A stretch of DNA of 64,000 nucleotides from Halorussus gelatinilyticus (GTDB taxonomy: Archaea; Halobacteriota; Halobacteria; Halobacteriales; Haladaptataceae). The notes below the pieces were generated by a model. It was not told the DNA's origin. It made no database searches and was given only the letters and a program-made list of their open reading frames with translations. Location of the stretch: positions 2,976,001 to 3,040,000 of the forward strand of contig NZ_CP096658.1 of the NCBI RefSeq assembly GCF_023238445.1. Reading direction: 5' to 3'. Position numbers and translations under genes: made by a program. Below, in pieces: positions 34,010-57,307 of this stretch (positions are counted from its first letter, which is position 1; every line of letters begins with the position of its first letter).

Positions 34010-34972
34010 ACCTTTTATCTCCCACCCGTATTTATAACCTTGGCTTGCTCATGGACTTCATACACTTCCTCAAACGCCGTGACAATGTAGCCTTGAGAAC
34101 CAGGAGTGATTTACTCCGAAGTAACTTCTATAGATACTCTGATAACTACTGACTCTATAGTTACCGGAATAGCTAATATATGTATCTTTGATTGGCACCC
34201 GATTTCGAGATGTGCTTGATCTCAATGGCCAAGCAAGGTAACTCTGTCACTCCCCTTCATACCTAATACAATTATTTATATTAATCAAGTATAAAATAAT
34301 AATACTGGATTTGCTTACGGTAAATTCTCTGCATCATGAGGAATCCATCTCTAGATACACCTCGTAATGATAAACGAGTCGAATGTATCTGATTTAGCGC
34401 CGAGTTGGTGAATAATTTGGCGAAAGAGCAGAAGGAAGTCCGTCCCAGGTACAAGGTACCTGGACACGAACTCCTCGTCGGTCGTACCCACGTATGGTTT
34501 GCGTGGGAATCACGAGGGGTCAGTGGCAGGGACACTGACCCCTGTAGATGACCGTTGCATGCCCTCAGCCGGATGGCCTCATCGGGCCCTTTCCATCGTA
34601 TACTCCGCTTTCGCATAGTCGTTCGACTAGCGGACGTTGGACAGATATACATTCAACTTCCGTTCGCTTAATCGTTGGGATAGCATCCTCTTTTCATGAC
34701 GAACGCTCGGGGAGCGCCGTCGGAAAAGGTTTATACAGCGACTCAACTAGTCTCATGTGAACGATTTCGTTCGTTTGCACACTGATGAGTACGCTGTATC
34801 GGTCACTGTCGGTCAATGGGTTCTGTCTCCCCCTGAGGTGGCTGATACAGCTTGACAGAGACGTACCGGTTCAGAGTGATGTCCGCACTCGAATTGACAG
34901 ATGATTCCCAGGACCGATGGCTAGTTTCACCCTCCTCGTCAGCACCCAGAAACGACCCGAGGCACGATACAC
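34010..34972. other. Long AT-rich gap with a hairpin cluster
   Basis: 963 bases with no convincing gene; short frames on both strands lack coding character. The left half (to 34320) is very AT-rich. The middle holds three close hairpins, listed separately. A TATA-like GTTTATAC at about 34729 points rightward and could drive a small RNA or the nuclease gene. Confidence 0.5.
34445..34542. repeat. Three consecutive hairpins
   Basis: Within 98 bases there are three perfect stems. CCAGGTAC/GTACCTGG (34445-34463) has an 8 bp stem and 3-base loop. CCCACG/CGTGGG (34487-34507) has 6 bp and a 9-base loop. GGGGTCAGTG/CACTGACCCC (34516-34542) has 10 bp and a 7-base loop. The set could be a structured RNA, a transposon end or a recombination site. 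Confidence 0.55.
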
Positions 34973-36889
34973 ATGAGTACAGACACTAGTACAAGTACAC
35001 TTGAAGCGATAACCGCTGAACTTAAAGCCGAGATTCCTGATGAACTCACCATCTCGAAGGTCACGTACGAAGGCCCTGAACTGATTCTCTACACCGACAC
35101 CCCACGAGAATTTGCTGAGCGGGATGGATTGATTCGCCAACTCGCGAGTACCGTCCGGAAACGAATCACCGTTCGGCCAGCCCCAGGCACCCAGACAAGT
35201 CCGGTGGATGCCGAGCCCCGTATACGCGATCTCATTCCGGACGCGGCGGGCATTACGAATCTCGAATTTTATCCCGAGACCGGTGAGGTCCTTATCGAAG
35301 CCGACAAGCCAGGGCTCGTTATTGGGAGTCGTGCCAGTACGCTCCGCGAAATCACGCAAGCTGTCGGCTGGACGCCAGAGGTCCTGCGCACACCACCGAT
35401 GGAGTCATCGACGGTCGATAACGTGCGGAACTTCCTCAAACAAGAACGTGGCGACCGACGGCAGTTCCTTGAGCGCGTCGGCGAGCAGATTCATCGTGAG
35501 TCCAATCAGGACCCCGAGTGGGTTCGCGTGACGACGCTGGGCTGTTGCCGCGAAGTTGGGCGGGCGAGTTTCATCTTGAGTACGCCAGAAACACGAGTTC
35601 TCATCGATTGTGGTGATAAGCCCGGCGCCGAGGGCGAAGTGCCCTATCTGCAACTCCCGGAGGCGAACCCAATCGCCGACCTCGATGCAGTCGTCCTGAC
35701 CCATGCACACCTCGATCATAGCGCCCTCCTCCCGCTTCTCTTCAAATACGGCTACGACGGCCCCGTTTATACGACGGAGGCGACACGGGACTTGATGGGC
35801 TTATTGCAACTGGACTATCTCGATGTGGCTGCAAAGGAGGGGCGCACACCGCCGTACGAGAGCGAGATGGTCCGCGAGGAACTCAAGCATACGATTCCGC
35901 TCGACTACGGCAATGTCACCGATATCGCCCCAAACATCAAACTCACGCTCCACAATGCGGGGCACATCCTCGGTAGTGCCGTTGCCCACTTCCACGTCGG
36001 TAGCGGGTTTCATAATCTCGTCTTTTCGGGTGACATCCACTATTCGGACACCCGCCTGTTCAACGGGGCTTCGAACGAGTTCCCGCGTGCCGAGACGCTC
36101 GTACTCGAATCGACCTACGGGCGGCGAAACGATTACCAGACGGATCAAGCAGATAGCGAACGGAAACTGATTACCCTTATCAACGACACGTACGAGGACG
36201 ACGGAACGGTCGTCATCCCGGCCTTCGCTGTTGGGCGCTCGCAGGAACTCATGCTCGTCCTCGAAGAGGCGATGCGCAAGGGCAAGATTCCGACCATGCC
36301 GGTCTACCTCGATGGGATGATTCGCGAGGCAACGGCCATTCACACGGCGTATCCCGAGTTCCTGCGCGATGGGTTACGACAGCGGATTCTCCACGACGGC
36401 GATAATCCGTTCCTTGGGGACCAGTTCCAGCAAGTCGACGGCGGTGAGGAGATGCGCCACGCGATTGCTGCCGGTGACCCGTGCATCATCCTCTCGACGT
36501 CAGGGATGGTGTCTGGCGGGCCGATCATGTCGTGGCTCGAACTACTGGGCGGTGACCCGGAGAATCTGTTGCTGTTCGTGGGGTATCAGGCACAGGGGAC
36601 ACTCGGTCGGCGGATTCAACGTGGCGAACGCAGGATTCCGTTCAGTGACCGTCGACGCGAGAAAGAACTCACACTCCAGTTCCGCGTCGAATCAGTCAGC
36701 GGGTTCTCCGGGCATGCTGACCGAAACGGCCTCGAGGACTTCGTCAGGACAATGGATCCGCGTCCACACAAGATTCTCTGCGTCCACGGCGACGAATCAG
36801 CGACCGATCAGCTCTCATCAGCCCTCTACCAGAAATTTAATCTCAGGACGTTTGCCCCAAAGAACACGGAAACGTTCCGTCTTGAGTAA
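34973..36889 (+). CDS. aCPSF1/FttA-type beta-CASP ribonuclease
   Basis: A 638-residue protein. N-terminal KH-type RNA-binding region (about 1-150, GLVIGSRASTLREI near 114-128), then a metallo-beta-lactamase domain with HAHLDHS at 244-250, NAGHILGSA and FSGDIHYSD. An inserted beta-CASP domain has AFAVGRSQELMLVLEEA, and the closing SGFSGHADRNGL and CVHGDE motifs are present. aCPSF1 (FttA) cuts RNA 3' ends and terminates transcription in archaea. Chromosomal copies are essential, so this one on a mobile region is probably an additional copy. Catalytic residues look intact. Confidence 0.9.
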   Translation: MSTDTSTSTLEAITAELKAEIPDELTISKVTYEGPELILYTDTPREFAERDGLIRQLASTVRKRITVRPAPGTQTSPVDAEPRIRDLIPDAAGITNLEFYPETGEVLIEADKPGLVIGSRASTLREITQAVGWTPEVLRTPPMESSTVDNVRNFLKQERGDRRQFLERVGEQIHRESNQDPEWVRVTTLGCCREVGRASFILSTPETRVLIDCGDKPGAEGEVPYLQLPEANPIADLDAVVLTHAHLDHSALLPLLFKYGYDGPVYTTEATRDLMGLLQLDYLDVAAKEGRTPPYESEMVREELKHTIPLDYGNVTDIAPNIKLTLHNAGHILGSAVAHFHVGSGFHNLVFSGDIHYSDTRLFNGASNEFPRAETLVLESTYGRRNDYQTDQADSERKLITLINDTYEDDGTVVIPAFAVGRSQELMLVLEEAMRKGKIPTMPVYLDGMIREATAIHTAYPEFLRDGLRQRILHDGDNPFLGDQFQQVDGGEEMRHAIAAGDPCIILSTSGMVSGGPIMSWLELLGGDPENLLLFVGYQAQGTLGRRIQRGERRIPFSDRRREKELTLQFRVESVSGFSGHADRNGLEDFVRTMDPRPHKILCVHGDESATDQLSSALYQKFNLRTFAPKNTETFRLE

Positions 36890-36945
36890 CTTCCTGCGTC
36901 AGTTCGTAGCTGTAATCGGCGTGATGCTGTTCATCGGGACGAAAT

Positions 36946-36954
36946 CTATTTATC
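36946..36954 (+). promoter_or_regulatory. TATA box of cassette copy 1
   Basis: CTATTTATC is centred at about 36950. The first conserved leader block begins 37 bases later, exactly as in copy 2 (TATA centre 56243, block at 56280). Confidence 0.6.
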
Positions 36955-36977
36955 GGTCACGACAAAAGGTGGAACCG

Positions 36978-37149
36978 TATTCAGGGCTCCGTCCCGTCCT
37001 TTCTCCACTCGCCCATCGGTTCGCCACCATGCAGGGGCGTCCTCCGATGGCACTGCTCTGAGATGCGCCGTGCCCACGGCGGTCCGTCCCCGGCGGTCGC
37101 TGGGTGTCCCTGACGGGGCTGGGCAGTACCTACCAGAGACACCACACCC
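36978..37149 (+). ncRNA. Conserved leader of cassette copy 1
   Basis: About 170 bases between predicted transcription start and the zinc-ribbon gene. It shares with 56270-56441 an 18-base block (36987-37004), an 11-base block TCGCCCATCGG, a 30-base identical block (37045-37074) and a 17-base block (37110-37126), with nearly the same spacing. The 30-base block contains GGCAC and GTGCC, able to pair, and the mini-frame ATG GCA CTG CTC TGA. A leader RNA, riboswitch-like element or separate sRNA is possible. Confidence 0.6.
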
Positions 37150-37362
37150 ATGACCCACGAAACAGACCTTCCGTGCGCCGACTGTGGGACAGCCCTCACC
37201 GAGCGAACCCGCCACGTTCAGGACCTTCCCATATCGACGCCGTGGCGTGGTACCGTCGACGTTGCTGAATGTCCGCTTTGTGGTGCGAGGTACTATCCGG
37301 AGCAAACCCTGACGCGACTGGCTGGATCACCACGTCGGCCACAGTCTCGGAGTGAGGGCTAA
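37150..37362 (+). CDS. Small zinc-ribbon protein, cassette copy 1
   Basis: 70 residues with CADCGTAL and CPLCGARYYPEQTLTRLA, a two-knuckle zinc ribbon like the N-terminal part of MqsA/YgiT-type proteins. It is clearly homologous to 56442-56654 (shared ETDLPC.DCGT.L.ERT and CP.CGARYYPEQT). Followed after 5 bases by the DUF7504-like gene. Function unknown. Confidence 0.8.
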   Translation: MTHETDLPCADCGTALTERTRHVQDLPISTPWRGTVDVAECPLCGARYYPEQTLTRLAGSPRRPQSRSEG

Positions 37363-37367
37363 CGACC

Positions 37368-38030
37368 ATGGAGGACGTATCACAGCAACACGAAGACGGC
37401 GGTGACCCCATTATTGAGTCCTTCCCCGATGCAGTCGCAGCGGGCACAACGGTGTTGGTTGCTGGGACGATTGACCCGACAGAATATGCACTCTGTCTCC
37501 GTGCCCTCAGTCACTACAGCAGCGGCACTGATACGGCACTCGTCGTCACGACGACCGAAGGTGCATCACAGACCAGAGGCCAGTACGAACGCGTCTGTCC
37601 GAATGCTGACCCTCCACAACTCCGTCTGGTCGATATGGCGTCCGATCAGTATATCACGGCCCTCTACGAGGACCTTCCGACGATCTCTATCCCCGCACCA
37701 GATGACCTCGAACGCCTTGTCCTCGCCCTCTCTGAACTAGTCGAGACGAGCGGGCCAACACCAGGGCAGCGCCATCTCGTTATTCGCTCCCTCTCGCCAA
37801 TTTTAGCTTCCAACCCCGTCGAACGGGTTTCCACGGTTCTCGATCGCATTTCCGGGCTTCGCACTCCAGGTGGACTTGGCCTCTTCGGCCTCGATTACAC
37901 GGCTCATGACGAAGACACGATGGCGGAACTTGCCACCTGTGTCGATGGCATCCTCTGGGTGACCGAACAGCCTGATACTGGAATCGAGTTCGAGCTCCGA
38001 TCGACGCGAGCACATCTCAACCGCCGTTAA
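37368..38030 (+). CDS. DUF7504-like protein, cassette copy 1
   Basis: 220 residues with an alternating alpha/beta pattern like a RecA/KaiC-type fold without an obvious P-loop. Key segments are TTVLVAGTIDPTEYALCLRAL, VVTTTEG, HLVIRSLSPIL and GLGLFGLDYTAHDEDTM. Homologous along its length to 56654-57307. I recall such haloarchaeal proteins as DUF7504, often linked to signalling or gas-vesicle-like regulators, but I cannot confirm that. The preceding gene ends 5 bases upstream. Confidence 0.75.
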   Translation: MEDVSQQHEDGGDPIIESFPDAVAAGTTVLVAGTIDPTEYALCLRALSHYSSGTDTALVVTTTEGASQTRGQYERVCPNADPPQLRLVDMASDQYITALYEDLPTISIPAPDDLERLVLALSELVETSGPTPGQRHLVIRSLSPILASNPVERVSTVLDRISGLRTPGGLGLFGLDYTAHDEDTMAELATCVDGILWVTEQPDTGIEFELRSTRAHLNRR

Positions 38031-38043
38031 TTGGTGAGATCGA

Positions 38044-38451
38044 ATGACTGATTCGCATACGGAACTGCCCGAAGGATGGGTTGAAGTACCACCCGCTGAG
38101 CAGCAGGAGTCCATCCTTTTCGAATATCAGTATCAGACCGACACTGAAACGACAGTTCTCGTCTCCGTGCTCACGCATGTGTCCGACGCACCACTTTACA
38201 AACTCCGGCTGTCGACGATTACACCGAGGGCAACGGTGACGCGACACGATTATCCCGTTGCGCAGTATGAAACGAAGGAGAAGGCGCGGACGAACGCGAT
38301 TGCGTTCCTCCACCACGTGTCGGCTGCGCTCGAAAACGGAACGCTCTCACAGCAAGCACCGGACCCCGAGACGATTCAGTCACTCATTGCGGACTTCAGC
38401 AGTGATGGTCTCTTTCCCCGATTCCGCTCGCTCTCGCGCAAACTCCTATGA
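38044..38451 (+). CDS. Hypothetical protein after cassette copy 1
   Basis: 135 residues with a beta-rich N-terminal half (WVEVPPAEQQESILFEYQYQ, then paired strands) and a helical C-terminal half. It starts 13 bases after the DUF7504-like gene, so it belongs to the same transcript; cassette copy 2 lacks it. No family recognised. Confidence 0.65.
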   Translation: MTDSHTELPEGWVEVPPAEQQESILFEYQYQTDTETTVLVSVLTHVSDAPLYKLRLSTITPRATVTRHDYPVAQYETKEKARTNAIAFLHHVSAALENGTLSQQAPDPETIQSLIADFSSDGLFPRFRSLSRKLL

Positions 38452-38475: not shown

Positions 38476-39399
38476 TTAGTCCGAGTCGGGATACGGAACT
38501 GTGAGCGACTCCCCATCAGCAGGGATACAGACGTCTGTATTAACGAGTTCACTCGCTTCGGTTTCTAACTGTTCAGTCTCGTTTGAATAGCGGGATGAAA
38601 TATGGGTCAGTGCGAGTCGGTCGACACCAGCTTGACGTGCGATCTCGGCAGCCTCTCGACTCGTCGAGTGCCCCGTCTGTTTGGCCCGGTTGCCCCGGTC
38701 GGACGCGAACATCGCTTCGTGGATGAGAAGATCCGCGTCCGTCGCAGCGGAAACCGTGGTGTCCGTCGGTCGGGTATCACCCGTATACACAACTCGACGT
38801 CCGGGCCGAGGGTCGCCAACCACCTGCTCCGGGTAGACGACCGTTCCATCATCAAGTTCGACAGGGGTGCCCTCATGGAGTTGTTGGAATTTTGGTCCAA
38901 CGGGAACGCCAAGTTCTTCGGCCCGTTTACGATTGAATCGTCCTTTGCGCTGGGCCTCGATGAGCGCATATCCCACCGATATCGTTCGATGATTCGTTTC
39001 GAAGGCCCGAATCGTGTACTCGTCGCGGTCAACCGCAGCATCACCGGGACTGACTTCGTGAATGGGGACTGGATATATCGGATTCGTCTTCGTCGCCTTG
39101 AGCAAGTGTGCGACGGTATCGGCGGTTCCTGCTGGCGTGTAGATTGGAAGTGACGCTGTTCGTTCGTTAAAGTCCAACGTTTGGAGCAATCCCGGAAGTC
39201 CGAGTACGTGGTCGCCGTGCAGATGGGTCAGTAAGATCGCGTCGATATCGAAGCCGGTCGAAAAGCGCATCATCTGGCGTTGCGTCCCTTCCCCGACATC
39301 GAAGAGGAACCGCTCACCCTCGCGCCGAAGCAGGATCGCACTCGGATTCCGTTCGGTGGTGGGGATGGCTCCACTGGTTCCGAGAAAGGTGACGTCCAT
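38476..39399 (-). CDS. Ribonuclease Z (tRNase Z), probable second copy
   Basis: 307 residues from MDVTFLGTSGAIPTTERNPS. Metal motif HLHGDHVLGLPG (His59, His61, Asp63, His64) and later YTGDTRPTD, LIHEAMF and LTHISSRYSN match RNase Z, which removes tRNA 3' trailers. The open frame continues upstream to 39498, but the family start is at 39399. Located in the accessory region beside another RNA-cutting enzyme (the aCPSF1-type gene). Confidence 0.92.
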   Translation of the reverse strand: MDVTFLGTSGAIPTTERNPSAILLRREGERFLFDVGEGTQRQMMRFSTGFDIDAILLTHLHGDHVLGLPGLLQTLDFNERTASLPIYTPAGTADTVAHLLKATKTNPIYPVPIHEVSPGDAAVDRDEYTIRAFETNHRTISVGYALIEAQRKGRFNRKRAEELGVPVGPKFQQLHEGTPVELDDGTVVYPEQVVGDPRPGRRVVYTGDTRPTDTTVSAATDADLLIHEAMFASDRGNRAKQTGHSTSREAAEIARQAGVDRLALTHISSRYSNETEQLETEASELVNTDVCIPADGESLTVPYPDSD

Positions 39400-39678
39400 A
39401 CCTGGGAGTACCAACTCGCGCGCCATACGAACTTCGGCATGACCGAGCACTCCCAGAACGTGCCTTCCCTTCTGGACCTCTTGTCGGTTAACGCCCAAAC
39501 TCGAACGAGAACAGACCTTTGTTTACTGTGGAACCTGTACTCACCCTTGGCGGCGATGACGAATAGTTACCCCACTGAGCCCCTTGTGATGACGATGGCA
39601 ACTGAGCCGCCACTTCCATTCAACGAGCATGCGTTGTATGGTCCACTGCCAATTAAATACGAGTTGCTCTGTAGCGGG

Positions 39679-48088: not shown

Positions 48089-50320
48089 TTAACGGAACCC
48101 TCGTGGTCCACTGACACTGCCGTCATCGAGTTGGCCATTCTCGAAGTCGTCCGTGATACGTTCGTACCGTGTTTCGACTGTCTCTGTCATGGTCGGACGA
48201 ACATCCGCAATTGCCTTGCTGAAATGATGCAGTGCAACCTCTGATGGCTCCGCCTGTTCACGCAACGCTTTGATTGCTGCTTCTTGGGCGACCGCTTCGA
48301 TGTCACTTCCGACGTACCCTTCAGTCATCTCTGCGAGGTCTCGGAAACTCACGTCCGATGCGAGTGGTGTGTCATCTGTCTGTACCTTGAAGATCTGTGT
48401 ACGTCCCTCAACGTCCGGTGCGCCAACGTTGACGAGTCGATCGAATCGACTGGTCCGCAGGATTGCTTCGTCGAGCATATCCGGGCGGTTCGTTGCCCCG
48501 ACCACCATGACGTCCTCTAGCGGTTGGATTCCATCGAGTTCGGTCAGGAGTTGATTGACGAGTCGATCCGAGCTCTCCCCACCCAATCCCTGTGAACGGC
48601 CAGCTGCAAGGCTATCGAGTTCGTCGAAGAAAACGACCGCCGGTGCAGACTCTCGTGCTTTCCGGAACGTGTCGCGGATCGCCGCTTCGGACTCCCCCGT
48701 CCATTTTGAGAGTATTTCGGGACCCCGAACCGGGATGAAGTTCGCGTCAGCTTCGTTCGCAACGACTTTCGCGAGCAGGGTCTTCCCCGTCCCCGGTGGT
48801 CCGTAGAGAAGCACTCCCGTGACCGAATCGATTCCCAACCGATCGAATTTCTCTGGCGACTGGAGCGACCATACGATGCTCTCTCGGAGGGCCTGCTTCG
48901 CGTCCCGGAGCCCGCCGACGTCGTCCCACGTTACGTCTGGGAGTTCGACGCGCACGTCACGTAACGCGGAGGGCTTGATCTCGCTGAGAACGCTGTCGAA
49001 ATCGGTCGTGGTCACGCTCATGCGATCGAGGAGTGCCGGTGGAATCTCCGCGTCCTCCTCGTCGTCGAGGTCAATATCTGGCAGATACCGTCGGAGTGCG
49101 TGCATCGCTGCCTCTTTCGCCAGTGATGCAATGTCTGCGCCGACGAATCCGTGGGTGTCGGCAGCGAGCTGGTCGAGGTCAACGTCGTCGGCAAGTGGCA
49201 TGCCACGCGTGTGGATTTGAAGAATTTCCTCCCGGTCGTGTGCGCTGGGTACGCCGATTTCGATTTCGCGGTCGAATCGTCCGGGACGCCGAAGTGCGGG
49301 ATCAATCGCGTCAGGTCGATTCGTCGCGCCGATTACGACGACGTCACCGCGATTTTCGAGGCCGTCCATCAACGGGAGGAGTTGGGCAACGACGCGTCGT
49401 TCGACCTCGCCAGTCACGTCGTTACGCGTGGGCGCAATCGAATCGAGTTCATCGAGGAAGATGATGGCTGGCGGGTTATCGCTAGCAGACGCGAATATTT
49501 CGCGGAGTTCCTCCTCGGATTCGCCGTAGTACTTGGAGATGATTTCCGGACCGGCAATCGAGTGGAATGAAGCGTCGGTTTCGTTGGCGACCGCCTTTGC
49601 GAGTAACGTTTTTCCGGTACCCGGTGGCCCGTGCAACAGGACACCCTTTGGTGCCTCGATGCCCAGCTTTCGGAACACCGTGGGATGGGCAATTGGAAGT
49701 TCGATCATCTCACGGACGCGTTCGACTTCGTTTTCGAGCCCGCCGATCTCCTCGTATGTGATGATGTTGTGGTCGTCTGTCGTGGATTGGTCGGTCACTG
49801 GTGTTTCACGAATGGTGATGCTCGTTTTCTCGGTGATTTTACCGGTCTGGTTGGGCTTGATTTCGAGTGCGATGAGCGAAAGCGTCTCGCCCGGTGTTTG
49901 GACGAACGGCTGGTCGGAGGAATCGACCGGAACGAGGTCATCTTCACTGACGGGCCGATTACGGAGTTGGTGTTCGATGAGACCTGCGACATTCGGGCCG
50001 ATGGGAACGTGGACCTCCTCTGTCGGTGCCAAGATGATGTGCCTGATAGCCCCGAGAGTGGCCTTCTGCACCGTAACGTGATCGCCGAGCGTGACGTCGG
50101 CGTTTTGTCTCGTAAACCCGTCAATACGGATCGTTTCGTCGTTCCAGTCCTCGAAGTCGGTCTGCTGGACCTTCGCAACGGTCGTAGTACTGCCCTCGAT
50201 GGTCACGAACCCACCGGGCGTGAGCTGTAGTTCCTCAAGCACGGTAGGGGCCAGTCGGGCAACTCCCTGTCCGGTATCGTTTGCATATGCTTGCTTGACT
50301 TGGAGTTGGATGTCGCTCAT
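48089..50320 (-). CDS. CDC48/VAT AAA ATPase
   Basis: 743 residues. N-terminal double-psi barrel and substrate domain (about 1-185). D1 AAA domain with Walker A GPPGTGKT at 231-238 and Walker [14 protein letters not shown]2 with Walker A at 507-514 and [15 protein letters not shown]. These hexamers unfold proteins, feeding the archaeal proteasome. Start chosen at [18 protein letters not shown]; the longer frame to 50620 overlaps the macro gene. Similar chromosomal copies exist in all haloarchaea, so this may be an additional one. Confidence 0.93.
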
Positions 50321-50354
50321 GCTCTCACGCGATTCAAATGCAGGTACGAGAGAT

Positions 50355-50897
50355 TCAGAGGCCGGTACTGAAAAAGGGTACGGACACCCCGAAAATCTCT
50401 GCTTGGGACGTTGTTCTGACCTCGTACGCGACAGCACGAAGCTGTTCGAGTTGTTGCTCTGTATGGCCAATAATCCGTACGTCAGCCAGCGAGGTGGGTT
50501 CGAACGCCCAAATCCTCTCACAGATGAATCGGGCGCCCGCCTCGAGTTCATAGCTGCCACCACCCCAGCCGAGGACTGGAAGGACGAGCGTTCGACAATC
50601 CAATGCATCAGCCCGTGCAAGTACGGTCTGAGTCACATCGCGAATGCTCTGCTCCGTTGCGTCGCCCTCATCGGGACTCGATATCGCATGGAGCAGATAA
50701 ATTGCGTTCAGCCCATGGGGGTCAGTGACAATTACATCACTACAGGACACCGGTCGATGCTGATTAATCTCGTCCATTATCGGACCACGTGCCTGTTCGC
50801 AGATCGCGGCGCTGACACCACAGTCCATCGAAGAATCCGGACTATTTGAATTCACGAGTGCATGGGCCGTCGCCTCAGTAATAGTCCCCTGATCCAA
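50355..50897 (-). CDS. Divergent macro-domain protein, unusual start
   Basis: 180 residues from a TTG at 50897. The macro core is present: QGTITEATAHALVNSNS near the start, IMDEINQHRPVS, and VLPVLGWGGGSYELEAGARF. Homology seems to extend upstream as FTIQFALDQG, where an ATA at 50918 stands at the place other macro genes have ATG. So it starts at TTG, uses ATA, or has lost its start. Related to 46143-46655. Downstream gene CDC48 begins 35 bases later. Confidence 0.75.
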   Translation of the reverse strand: MDQGTITEATAHALVNSNSPDSSMDCGVSAAICEQARGPIMDEINQHRPVSCSDVIVTDPHGLNAIYLLHAISSPDEGDATEQSIRDVTQTVLARADALDCRTLVLPVLGWGGGSYELEAGARFICERIWAFEPTSLADVRIIGHTEQQLEQLRAVAYEVRTTSQAEIFGVSVPFFSTGL

Positions 50898-56048: not shown

Positions 56049-56238
56049 CCGGCTCCATCCATTGTCTTGCTACGCAAGATCAGTATATTCAGCACAGCTT
56101 TGTAGACCGGACTGGTGATTGAGAAAAGTAGTACCATAAGGTGCGCACTACGTACTTACCAGCCCCCGTCCCAGTCCCATCCGTTATTACTGATTTCAAG
56201 AGCGAACTCAGAACCTATCATCGACTGACTGAGCGTAA

Positions 56239-56247
56239 CTTATATCC
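56239..56247 (+). promoter_or_regulatory. TATA box of cassette copy 2
   Basis: CTTATATCC is centred at about 56243, predicting transcription start at about 56270, ten bases before the first conserved leader block. Confidence 0.6.
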
Positions 56248-56269
56248 GGGGCCTCCATCATATATCAAG

Positions 56270-56441
56270 GTACCCGAGACTCCGTCCCGTCCTTTCTTCG
56301 TTCGCCCATCGGGGTGCCGCCAGTATGGAGGCATCATTCGATGGCACTGCTCTGAGATGCGCCGTGCCGGATGATTCCGCCGACCATTGGTGGCCAGCCG
56401 TGGGGCTACCAACTGACGGGGCTGGGCAGCCATCTACAATC
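56270..56441 (+). ncRNA. Conserved leader of cassette copy 2
   Basis: About 172 bases from the predicted start to the zinc-ribbon ATG. It repeats the blocks of copy 1: 56280-56297 (18 bases identical), TCGCCCATCGG, 56339-56368 (30 bases identical) and 56413-56429 (17 bases). Distance from the first block to the 30-base block is 59 (58 in copy 1), and from that to the gene 74 (76 in copy 1). Sequence between the blocks differs, so the blocks seem under selection. Confidence 0.6.
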
Positions 56442-56654
56442 ATGACCACTGAAACTGACCTTCCCTGTACGGACTGTGGCACGGACCTCCATGAACGAAC
56501 CCTGCCAGCTCACACGCTCTTAGCCTCGATTGAAGGCCATCAATACATCAACGTAGCTGACTGTCCCACCTGTGGTGCTCGGTATTATCCCGAGCAGACA
56601 GTAACAGTACTTGCAGAGGTATTGGGAGCACAGCGAACGGAGGAGGAGAGTTAA
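56442..56654 (+). CDS. Small zinc-ribbon protein, cassette copy 2
   Basis: 70 residues with CTDCGTDL and CPTCGARYYPEQTVTVLAEV. Homologue of 37150-37362. Its TAA overlaps the ATG of the DUF7504-like gene by one base, so translation is coupled. Function unknown. Confidence 0.8.
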   Translation: MTTETDLPCTDCGTDLHERTLPAHTLLASIEGHQYINVADCPTCGARYYPEQTVTVLAEVLGAQRTEEES

Positions 56655-57307
56655 TGCCTGTGGACACCTATTGCGGTGTCGACAACGAGGACCAACTCAG
56701 CGACGTTGCGGACGCTGTTTCAGCACCAACCACGATGCTCATTGCGGGCACAGTCGACCCGACGGAATACGCACTCGGTCTCCGCCTATTAGCGCACGCG
56801 GGAAGTGCTGATGATACTGCGATCATCGTCACGACCACAGAAGGCCGTGAGCAGGTGATTGCTCACACCCGGGATGGCGTCGTCGAAGACGAGGTGCCTT
56901 CGGTGGCCGTGGTCGATACCGTGTCTGAAGATCAGTACCTTACCGCACCGTACGCAGATATCCCCACGGTCTATATGCCCTCAGCGGGGGATCTAGAACG
57001 GGTTGTAATCGGCCTATCAGATTTGACCGGGACTGTCGTACCGTCTACGGGAACTCGACACTTTGTCATCCGGTCGCTCACACCACTGATTGAGGGAGCA
57101 ACTACGGAACGGGTCTGTCGGCTTCTTGAACGAGTGAAGGGACTTCGAGTGGGTGACGGACTCGGAATCTTTGGCATCGATTTTACGGCCCACGACGAAG
57201 AGACAATGAACGAGTTGACAGCGGTGGTAGACCGCCTGCTGTGGGTGTCCGAGGATTCTGACGGGGGATTACAGTTCGAACTCCGAACAACGAGACGTCG
57301 CCTCTAG
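56654..57307 (+). CDS. DUF7504-like protein, cassette copy 2
   Basis: 217 residues, alpha/beta pattern, homologous to 37368-38030: AGTVDPTEYALGLRLLAHAG, IIVTTTEG, RHFVIRSLTPLIEGATTERV and GLGIFGIDFTAHDEETMNEL. No P-loop or other catalytic motif seen. Family name from memory (DUF7504). It overlaps the upstream zinc-ribbon gene by one base. The N-terminal 20 residues differ from copy 1. Confidence 0.75.
   Translation: MPVDTYCGVDNEDQLSDVADAVSAPTTMLIAGTVDPTEYALGLRLLAHAGSADDTAIIVTTTEGREQVIAHTRDGVVEDEVPSVAVVDTVSEDQYLTAPYADIPTVYMPSAGDLERVVIGLSDLTGTVVPSTGTRHFVIRSLTPLIEGATTERVCRLLERVKGLRVGDGLGIFGIDFTAHDEETMNELTAVVDRLLWVSEDSDGGLQFELRTTRRRL

Follow-up and report, generated by a model that had tools for sequence, protein, structure and literature searches.

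The window analysed here, a 64-kb stretch of the Halorussus gelatinilyticus genome, contains two copies of a small cassette in which a 70-residue zinc-ribbon protein is encoded next to a DUF7504 protein. In copy 1 the zinc-ribbon gene, whose product has two CxxC motifs, occupies 37150..37362 (+) and the DUF7504 gene 37368..38030 (+); the equivalent genes of copy 2 are found at 56442..56654 (+) and 56654..57307 (+). Both DUF7504 products match PF24336 above the Pfam cut-off of 27 bits, with 64.3 bits (E=2.5e-17) for copy 1 and 51.9 bits (E=1.7e-13) for copy 2. The zinc ribbons resemble the small two-CxxC C(P)XCG zinc-finger micro-proteins of Haloferax, which are of similar size (PMC6562870, PMC11241148), although the 70-residue proteins of the cassettes fall under every curated Pfam and NCBIfam cut-off. 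Directly 3' of the copy-1 DUF7504 gene is a third gene of the unit (38044..38451, +), encoding 135 residues with no family assignment and no Pfam match, an arrangement that recurs in about a dozen related loci.

An AlphaFold2 model of the copy-1 DUF7504 protein (pLDDT 85.3) has a KaiC/FlaH-like RecA fold, and Foldseek matched it to KaiC, FlaH and other RecA-superfamily ATPases with a probability of 1.00, E values down to 1e-6 and a query TM-score of ∼0.5. The Walker A motif GxxxxGK[S/T] was not found in any of 17 DUF7504 sequences, the aligned stretch being VLVAGTIDPTEYAL-like and devoid of GK[S/T]. As none of the 17 has the P-loop lysine or serine/threonine, DUF7504 is probably not an ATPase, and a fold of this kind without Walker A makes it a probable binding protein.

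The DUF7504 proteins of the two copies are only 48% identical to one another. Each is closer to other Halorussus proteins, copy 1 being 78% identical to a plasmid copy from Halorussus aquaticus and copy 2 sharing 75% and 68% identity with two further Halorussus copies. A recent single duplication, which the sequence-only reading had listed among the findings that would count against it, is therefore contradicted, and the leader described below is also conserved in other genomes. Judged by these identities, the cassettes represent two old lineages with separate relatives that share an island.

The leader domain and its base pairing

The likeness between the cassettes extends upstream of the genes, and the four leader blocks and their spacings given in the sequence-only reading proved exact at both loci on direct reading. 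From the TATA centre to CTCCGTCC the distance is 37 nt in copies 1 and 2 alike (∼36950 to 36987 and ∼56243 to 56280); from this first block to a 30-mer it is 58 nt in copy 1 (30-mer at 37045) and 59 nt in copy 2 (56339); and from the 30-mer to the ATG it is 76 nt in copy 1 (ATG at 37150) and 74 nt in copy 2 (56442). A 29-mer from the 30-base block occurs twice in the 64-kb window but is absent from all 100 dinucleotide shuffles with as many as 3 mismatches allowed, and the 26-nt core of the leader has two sites in the 3.67-Mb home genome, which are those of copies 1 and 2. Direct repeats shared by the copies include D3 (84% identity over 43 nt) and D5 (92% over 39 nt). By sequence, a BRE/TATA element precedes the leader at 36940..36954 (+; CGAAATCTATTTATC) in copy 1 and at 56234..56247 (+; CGTAACTTATATCC) in copy 2, and a CG[A/T]AAC-TATTTA-like element stands at an equal distance from the leader in nearly all relatives.

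The whole structured domain spans 36984..37126 (+) in copy 1, as defined by alignments A3, A5 and A6 and a match of 134.9 bits to covariance model R1, which was itself built from the leader family; copy 2 spans 56277..56429 (+; R1 match 131.5 bits). Reading from the 5' side, the plan consists of the BRE/TATA, ∼36 nt, the 5' strand of a closing stem (P1), a pyrimidine-rich stretch (CUUUCUUCG and variants), an inner domain, the P1 3' strand, 10-40 nt and the start codon. In copy 1 the P1 5' strand GCUCCGUCCCGUC (36986..36998, +) pairs with the 3' strand GACGGGGCUGGGC (37112..37124, +), a pairing supported by covariation, and the pyrimidine-rich CUUUCUCC (36999..37006, +), which is kept in nearly all relatives, sits just inside it. 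In the core-bearing group the inner domain is made up of P2 (CAUCGG/YCGAUG plus CGCC/GGCG) and P3 (GGCACUGCUCYGAGAUGCGCCGUGCC). Here, P2 occupies 37014..37049 (+), with CAUCGG at 37014-37019, CCGAUG at 37044-37049 and CGCC/GGCG inside, and the P3 hairpin is the near-invariant 26-nt core GGCACUGCUCUGAGAUGCGCCGUGCC at 37049..37074 (+), identified by conservation in 18 leaders and by genome scans and identical in sequence in copy 2 (56343..56368, +). P1 begins ∼36 nt past the TATA centre, that is, ∼10 nt inside the predicted 5' end of the RNA, and ends ∼25 nt 5' of the start codon in H. gelatinilyticus. In two distant leaders (L054 and L055) the domain is reduced to P1 alone, a hairpin whose 14-nt loop contains the pyrimidine stretch.

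Evidence that this domain acts as RNA comes chiefly from P1. In an 18-row alignment of core-bearing leaders, 95.0% of cells pair, compared with 32-46% when the partners are slid, and the P1 strands of these leaders have a mean identity of 71-73%. In A7, a 21-row alignment with ten rows of diverged leaders, 81.7% of P1 cells are paired against 34-44% for slid partners, and both sides are altered in 7 of 12 pairs, which supplies the covarying base pairs that the sequence-only reading had proposed looking for. The P1 covariation score in A7 is 0.252, compared with 0.03-0.14 for slid partners, and is reached in 1 of 500 shuffles. More distant leaders, which were positioned by eye, have P1 at the same position with a different helix in each, for example CGCGUCGGCGC, GGUCUCGUUUC, CGGCCUCAUUCC and UCGGUUCCGA. 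Tests of P1 in single leaders, anchored on the pyrimidine motif in place of a low-power search of wide windows with RNAduplex and ungapped helices, combine to 1e-12, a value to be read with the leaders being non-independent and some of the distant ones not significant singly. Hence pairing is maintained across ∼100 nt while the sequence has wholly changed, and it is this fixed pairing with changing sequence that argues for P1 acting as RNA.

For the inner hairpins, pairing is complete or nearly so (100% of cells in P2 and 98.6% in its inner stem across the 18 leaders). Because the paired columns of P3 are invariant and those of P2 nearly so in these leaders, the support for both comes mostly from pairing and from a few relatives, namely a C-G to U-A change in P2 of the Haloarcula leader L101 and compensating changes in P3 of L043 and L050. 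P3 is lost in the most distant relatives. Folding of single leader sequences gave no better energies than shuffles (z +0.43 and -1.24) and is for that reason left out of the evidence. An alternative pairing, GGCGUCC/GGAUGCC, was rejected as part of the main structure, with 85.7% of cells paired against the 100% and 98.6% of P2 and its inner stem and with a break in the copy-1 type; it is a possible switch candidate.

The same blocks might be read as DNA, in the form of operator sites, or as a small open reading frame rather than as structured RNA. Their very strong conservation agrees with a protein-binding site, and ATGGCACTGCTCTGA reads MALL* in most core-bearing leaders. Compensatory changes ∼100 nt apart speak against either reading. 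The leader peptide MALL* was rejected, since three leaders have lost its stop and one its ATG, and the core's other ATG frame has neither fixed length nor fixed end; antisense or long open reading frames through the leader were likewise rejected, as indels interrupt all frames. We therefore regard a DNA-level element or hidden peptide as very improbable, and the comparative sequence evidence gives us strong confidence that the leader is a structured cis-acting RNA.

Distribution of the leader and its link to DUF7504

With up to 3 mismatches allowed, the 26-nt core was found in 9 of 292 haloarchaeal genomes belonging to several families, with 0-1 mismatch seen and nearly always a perfect match. 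R1 recovered the same genomes at 121.8-162.4 bits and all other matches at or below 32.2 bits; two of its four weak matches (in genomes G175 and G266) are diverged leaders upstream of DUF7504. An exact scan for the core across 84,980 GTDB species returned 10 places, all haloarchaeal (Halorussus, Halosimplex, Halorubrum, Haloarchaeobius and strain XH8) and all before zinc-ribbon/DUF7504 genes or their remnants. Further core-bearing leaders were present in plasmid records of Halorussus limi, Haloplanus, Halalkalicoccus and Haloarcula sinaiiensis, the total being 22, and a DUF7504 profile search led to a further ∼20 distant leaders organised in the same way. The 18 places matched by the broader model R2, in 17 of the 292 genomes, were all of this kind, a result that shows the absence of other sites and not new members, its diverged matches having been in its training set.

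Thus every scan (core, R1, R2 and GTDB) puts the leader in a consistent position upstream of one gene set. The sequence-only reading had proposed a conserved leader ahead of zinc-ribbon/DUF7504 pairs, a proposal that would be weakened by blocks at random sites; the covariance models and scans bear it out, with these genes downstream and no sites of a different kind across 292 genomes. Ordinary core DUF7504 genes, which are near-universal, had the leader in 0 of 16 loci sampled, and in viral contigs neither the 26-nt core nor DUF7504 relatives were found. What comparison of the relatives shows is that the DUF7504 transcription unit has, at its predicted 5' end, a structured RNA linked to it in cis.

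Within this gene set, the zinc ribbon is the less constant member. The zinc site or the whole gene is lost in 6 of the 22 core-bearing loci, which have no two-CxxC open reading frame, and the leader and invariant hairpin are retained in them; in Haloarcula sinaiiensis L101 the leader is followed by DUF7504 with no zinc ribbon between. The function of the leader is therefore independent of the zinc ribbon, and the earlier suggestion that the zinc-ribbon protein autoregulates its synthesis through the leader is not supported. DUF7504 is intact in 21 of the 22 loci, and as far as gene content can tell, the leader tracks DUF7504, not the zinc ribbon. The broken DUF7504 gene (L033, 3720-3880) lies on a Halorussus aquaticus plasmid, where it contains stop codons directly 3' of an intact leader and zinc ribbon; it is a decaying second copy, with an intact DUF7504 gene on the same plasmid.

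This association also bears on a trans-acting function, in which the P1-closed domain would be cut from the 5' UTR to act elsewhere as a small RNA. The domain is self-contained, is encoded beside RNA-cutting enzymes and has a core that outlasts decay of the first gene, as might be expected of such an RNA. On the other hand, the home genome has no complementary site (16-mer with up to 2 mismatches, and the P3 loop), and the leader never occurs apart from DUF7504 genes, making a small RNA of this kind distinctly improbable.

Among 18 aligned leaders the 26-nt core has a mean pairwise identity of 98.9%, compared with 46.7% amino-acid identity for the downstream DUF7504 protein. A hairpin so much more conserved than the protein 3' of it points to a specific, searchable molecular partner. 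In Haloferax volcanii, 72% of protein-coding transcripts have their 5' end at the start codon or no more than five bases from it (PMC4983044); given that most mRNAs of this organism begin there, a long structured leader common to many genera is unexpected. DUF7504 is not mentioned in the literature searched, and none of the titles on structured RNAs in archaea seemed to describe the leader. Cis-acting leaders as such are well known; against the sources searched, this family is new, as are its hairpin core and its association with mobile RNA-processing genes.

Riboswitch or protein reader

We favour a protein as the reader of the leader, with a riboswitch as the main alternative. As a riboswitch, the leader would bind a small molecule or ion through the invariant P3/P2 core, with P1, near the start codon, serving as the switching stem. 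A closing stem of free sequence and fixed pairing round a conserved core, placed before the start codon, is typical anatomy for an aptamer, and persistence of the leader after zinc-ribbon loss would also suit this reading. Unlike riboswitch aptamers, however, the leader has no assigned ligand and no Rfam match. No model of Rfam 15 (4227 models) matched in the 64-kb window at gathering thresholds, and in the leader region at E values up to 5 there was no riboswitch and only a chance serC match of 12.2 bits inside coding sequence. CUGAGA in P3 recalls one arm of the TPP riboswitch, which was rejected, the second THI-box arm being absent and cmscan giving no match. Moreover, the most distant leaders that precede this gene lack the core, and its product has no role as an enzyme or transporter from which a ligand might be guessed. 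A riboswitch is in our judgement unlikely.

Overall, we lean towards a reading in which the zinc-ribbon/DUF7504 mRNA begins with this leader and the leader represents an undescribed family of cis-acting, structured, protein-read RNAs, the protein-read mechanism itself being proposed more tentatively. A trans-acting factor would read P3, the exposed pyrimidine-rich stretch, or both, and an RNA-binding or RNA-processing protein would be a likelier reader than the zinc ribbon. Opening and closing of the P1-sealed leader would then set the amount of DUF7504, possibly by way of translation, 5'-end stability or early termination. Candidate readers are DUF7504 itself, aCPSF1/FttA and aRNase J, the last two present as spare enzyme copies on the islands that carry the leader.

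One branch of the protein-read model is autorepression, with DUF7504, or an intact zinc ribbon, binding the leader to hold down its own production. Of the cassette genes, DUF7504 alone is present almost without exception, and its KaiC/FlaH-like fold without Walker A would suit a binding protein. It has no known RNA-binding signature, however, and its near-universal core relatives were without such a leader where sampled, while the zinc ribbon is missing from six leader loci. We consider autoregulation to be on the unlikely side.

The leader of E. coli rne is an autoregulatory 5' UTR that is read by a nuclease. The haloarchaeal leader is likewise a structured 5' UTR, and the RNA-processing enzymes encoded beside it are possible readers. 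It differs in that the regulated gene is DUF7504 rather than a nuclease gene, there is no sequence relation between the two leaders, and reading by a nuclease is only putative.

The island and its RNA-processing enzymes

Copy 1 lies directly downstream of a paralog of the termination nuclease aCPSF1/FttA (34973..36889, +; TIGR03675 and PF17214), whose gene ends ∼100 nt before the first block of the leader. The protein scores 913.6 bits against the TIGR03675 cut-off of 580.2 and has KH, MBL and beta-CASP domains; the canonical aCPSF1 of H. gelatinilyticus is encoded elsewhere in the genome. Island aCPSF1 proteins of different genera, nine in all, group in a single clade (support 100/100) apart from 31 canonical proteins. 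Beside the cassette, at 38476..39498 (-), is an RNase Z paralog (TIGR02651, 348.5 bits, over the cut-off), and plasmids of Halorussus and Haloplanus (L098, L099 and L105) likewise have an RNase Z paralog shortly 3' of the cassette and oriented against it. The surrounding island (∼28900-58600), which has a lower GC3, contains aCPSF1, RNase Z, a Cdc48-family AAA gene (48089-50620), macro-domain and DUF5786-like proteins and thioredoxin, together with an Na/H exchanger, an ion channel, YetF and MFS genes; its content suggests a role in stress or RNA processing.

Related gene sets are found on plasmids of other haloarchaea. Across ∼38 leader/DUF7504 regions, the recurrent neighbours are DUF5786, an aRNase J paralog, island-type aCPSF1, macro-domain proteins, RNase Z, transporters and the 135-residue third gene. 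The aRNase J paralogs (L030, 1005; L101, 2533-3879; L102, 5597-6943; L123, 12254; L132-L138) are 78-87% identical to the L101 protein and occur near many leader/DUF7504 loci, including some without aCPSF1. The carriers of the cassette are thus plasmids and islands with spare RNA-processing enzymes (the dedicated aCPSF1/FttA clade, aRNase J and RNase Z), and the leader is probably an undescribed gene-control element on mobile DNA beside them. Spare aCPSF1/FttA and aRNase J on mobile DNA link the leader to the question of how archaea control termination and RNA decay. The aRNase J of H. volcanii associates with Cdc48a, and aCPSF1 turned up in those tandem-affinity fractions too (PMC10470531).

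Orthologs of aCPSF1/FttA bind U-rich RNA (PMC8716108, PMC11616081), through their KH domains (PMC8716108), which fits an exposed pyrimidine stretch as a target by analogy and is not proof of it. The leader is similar to aCPSF1/FttA-dependent terminators (PMC11616081, PMC8716108) in having an exposed, pyrimidine-rich, U-containing stretch with an aCPSF1 paralog nearby, but the stretch is short, has no pure U-tract and is near the 5' end and not at the transcript end. An aCPSF1 paralog is adjacent in about half of the core-bearing loci, and core-bearing leaders are also found in genomes with a single aCPSF1 (G026, G146 and G256). The island aCPSF1 is therefore not required and cannot be the sole reader.

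A more ambitious reading, which we regard as quite unlikely, makes the leader the sensor of a mobile archaeal RNA-surveillance system, reporting the state of termination and RNA decay and switching on the KaiC-like DUF7504. It draws on the second set of enzymes on plasmids and islands, namely aCPSF1/FttA, aRNase J, RNase Z and Cdc48. If true, this reading would tie a structured regulatory leader to haloarchaeal termination and decay factors.

PADLOC defence profiles gave no match for the zinc ribbon, DUF7504, the third gene, aCPSF1 or RNase Z. The island aCPSF1 matches the model of the type VII CRISPR nuclease Cas14 at 319.9 bits, under the 800-bit cut-off, a score sufficiently explained by the shared MBL/beta-CASP fold. 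The island aCPSF1 gene also has a 5' region of its own extending ∼190-215 nt past the TATA (window 34729-34790; L025, L028, L029, L030, L032, L098 and L099). In most copies a hairpin of the type GAACGAUUUCRUCCGUUCG lies ∼29 nt past the TATA, and this region may be a second regulated leader.
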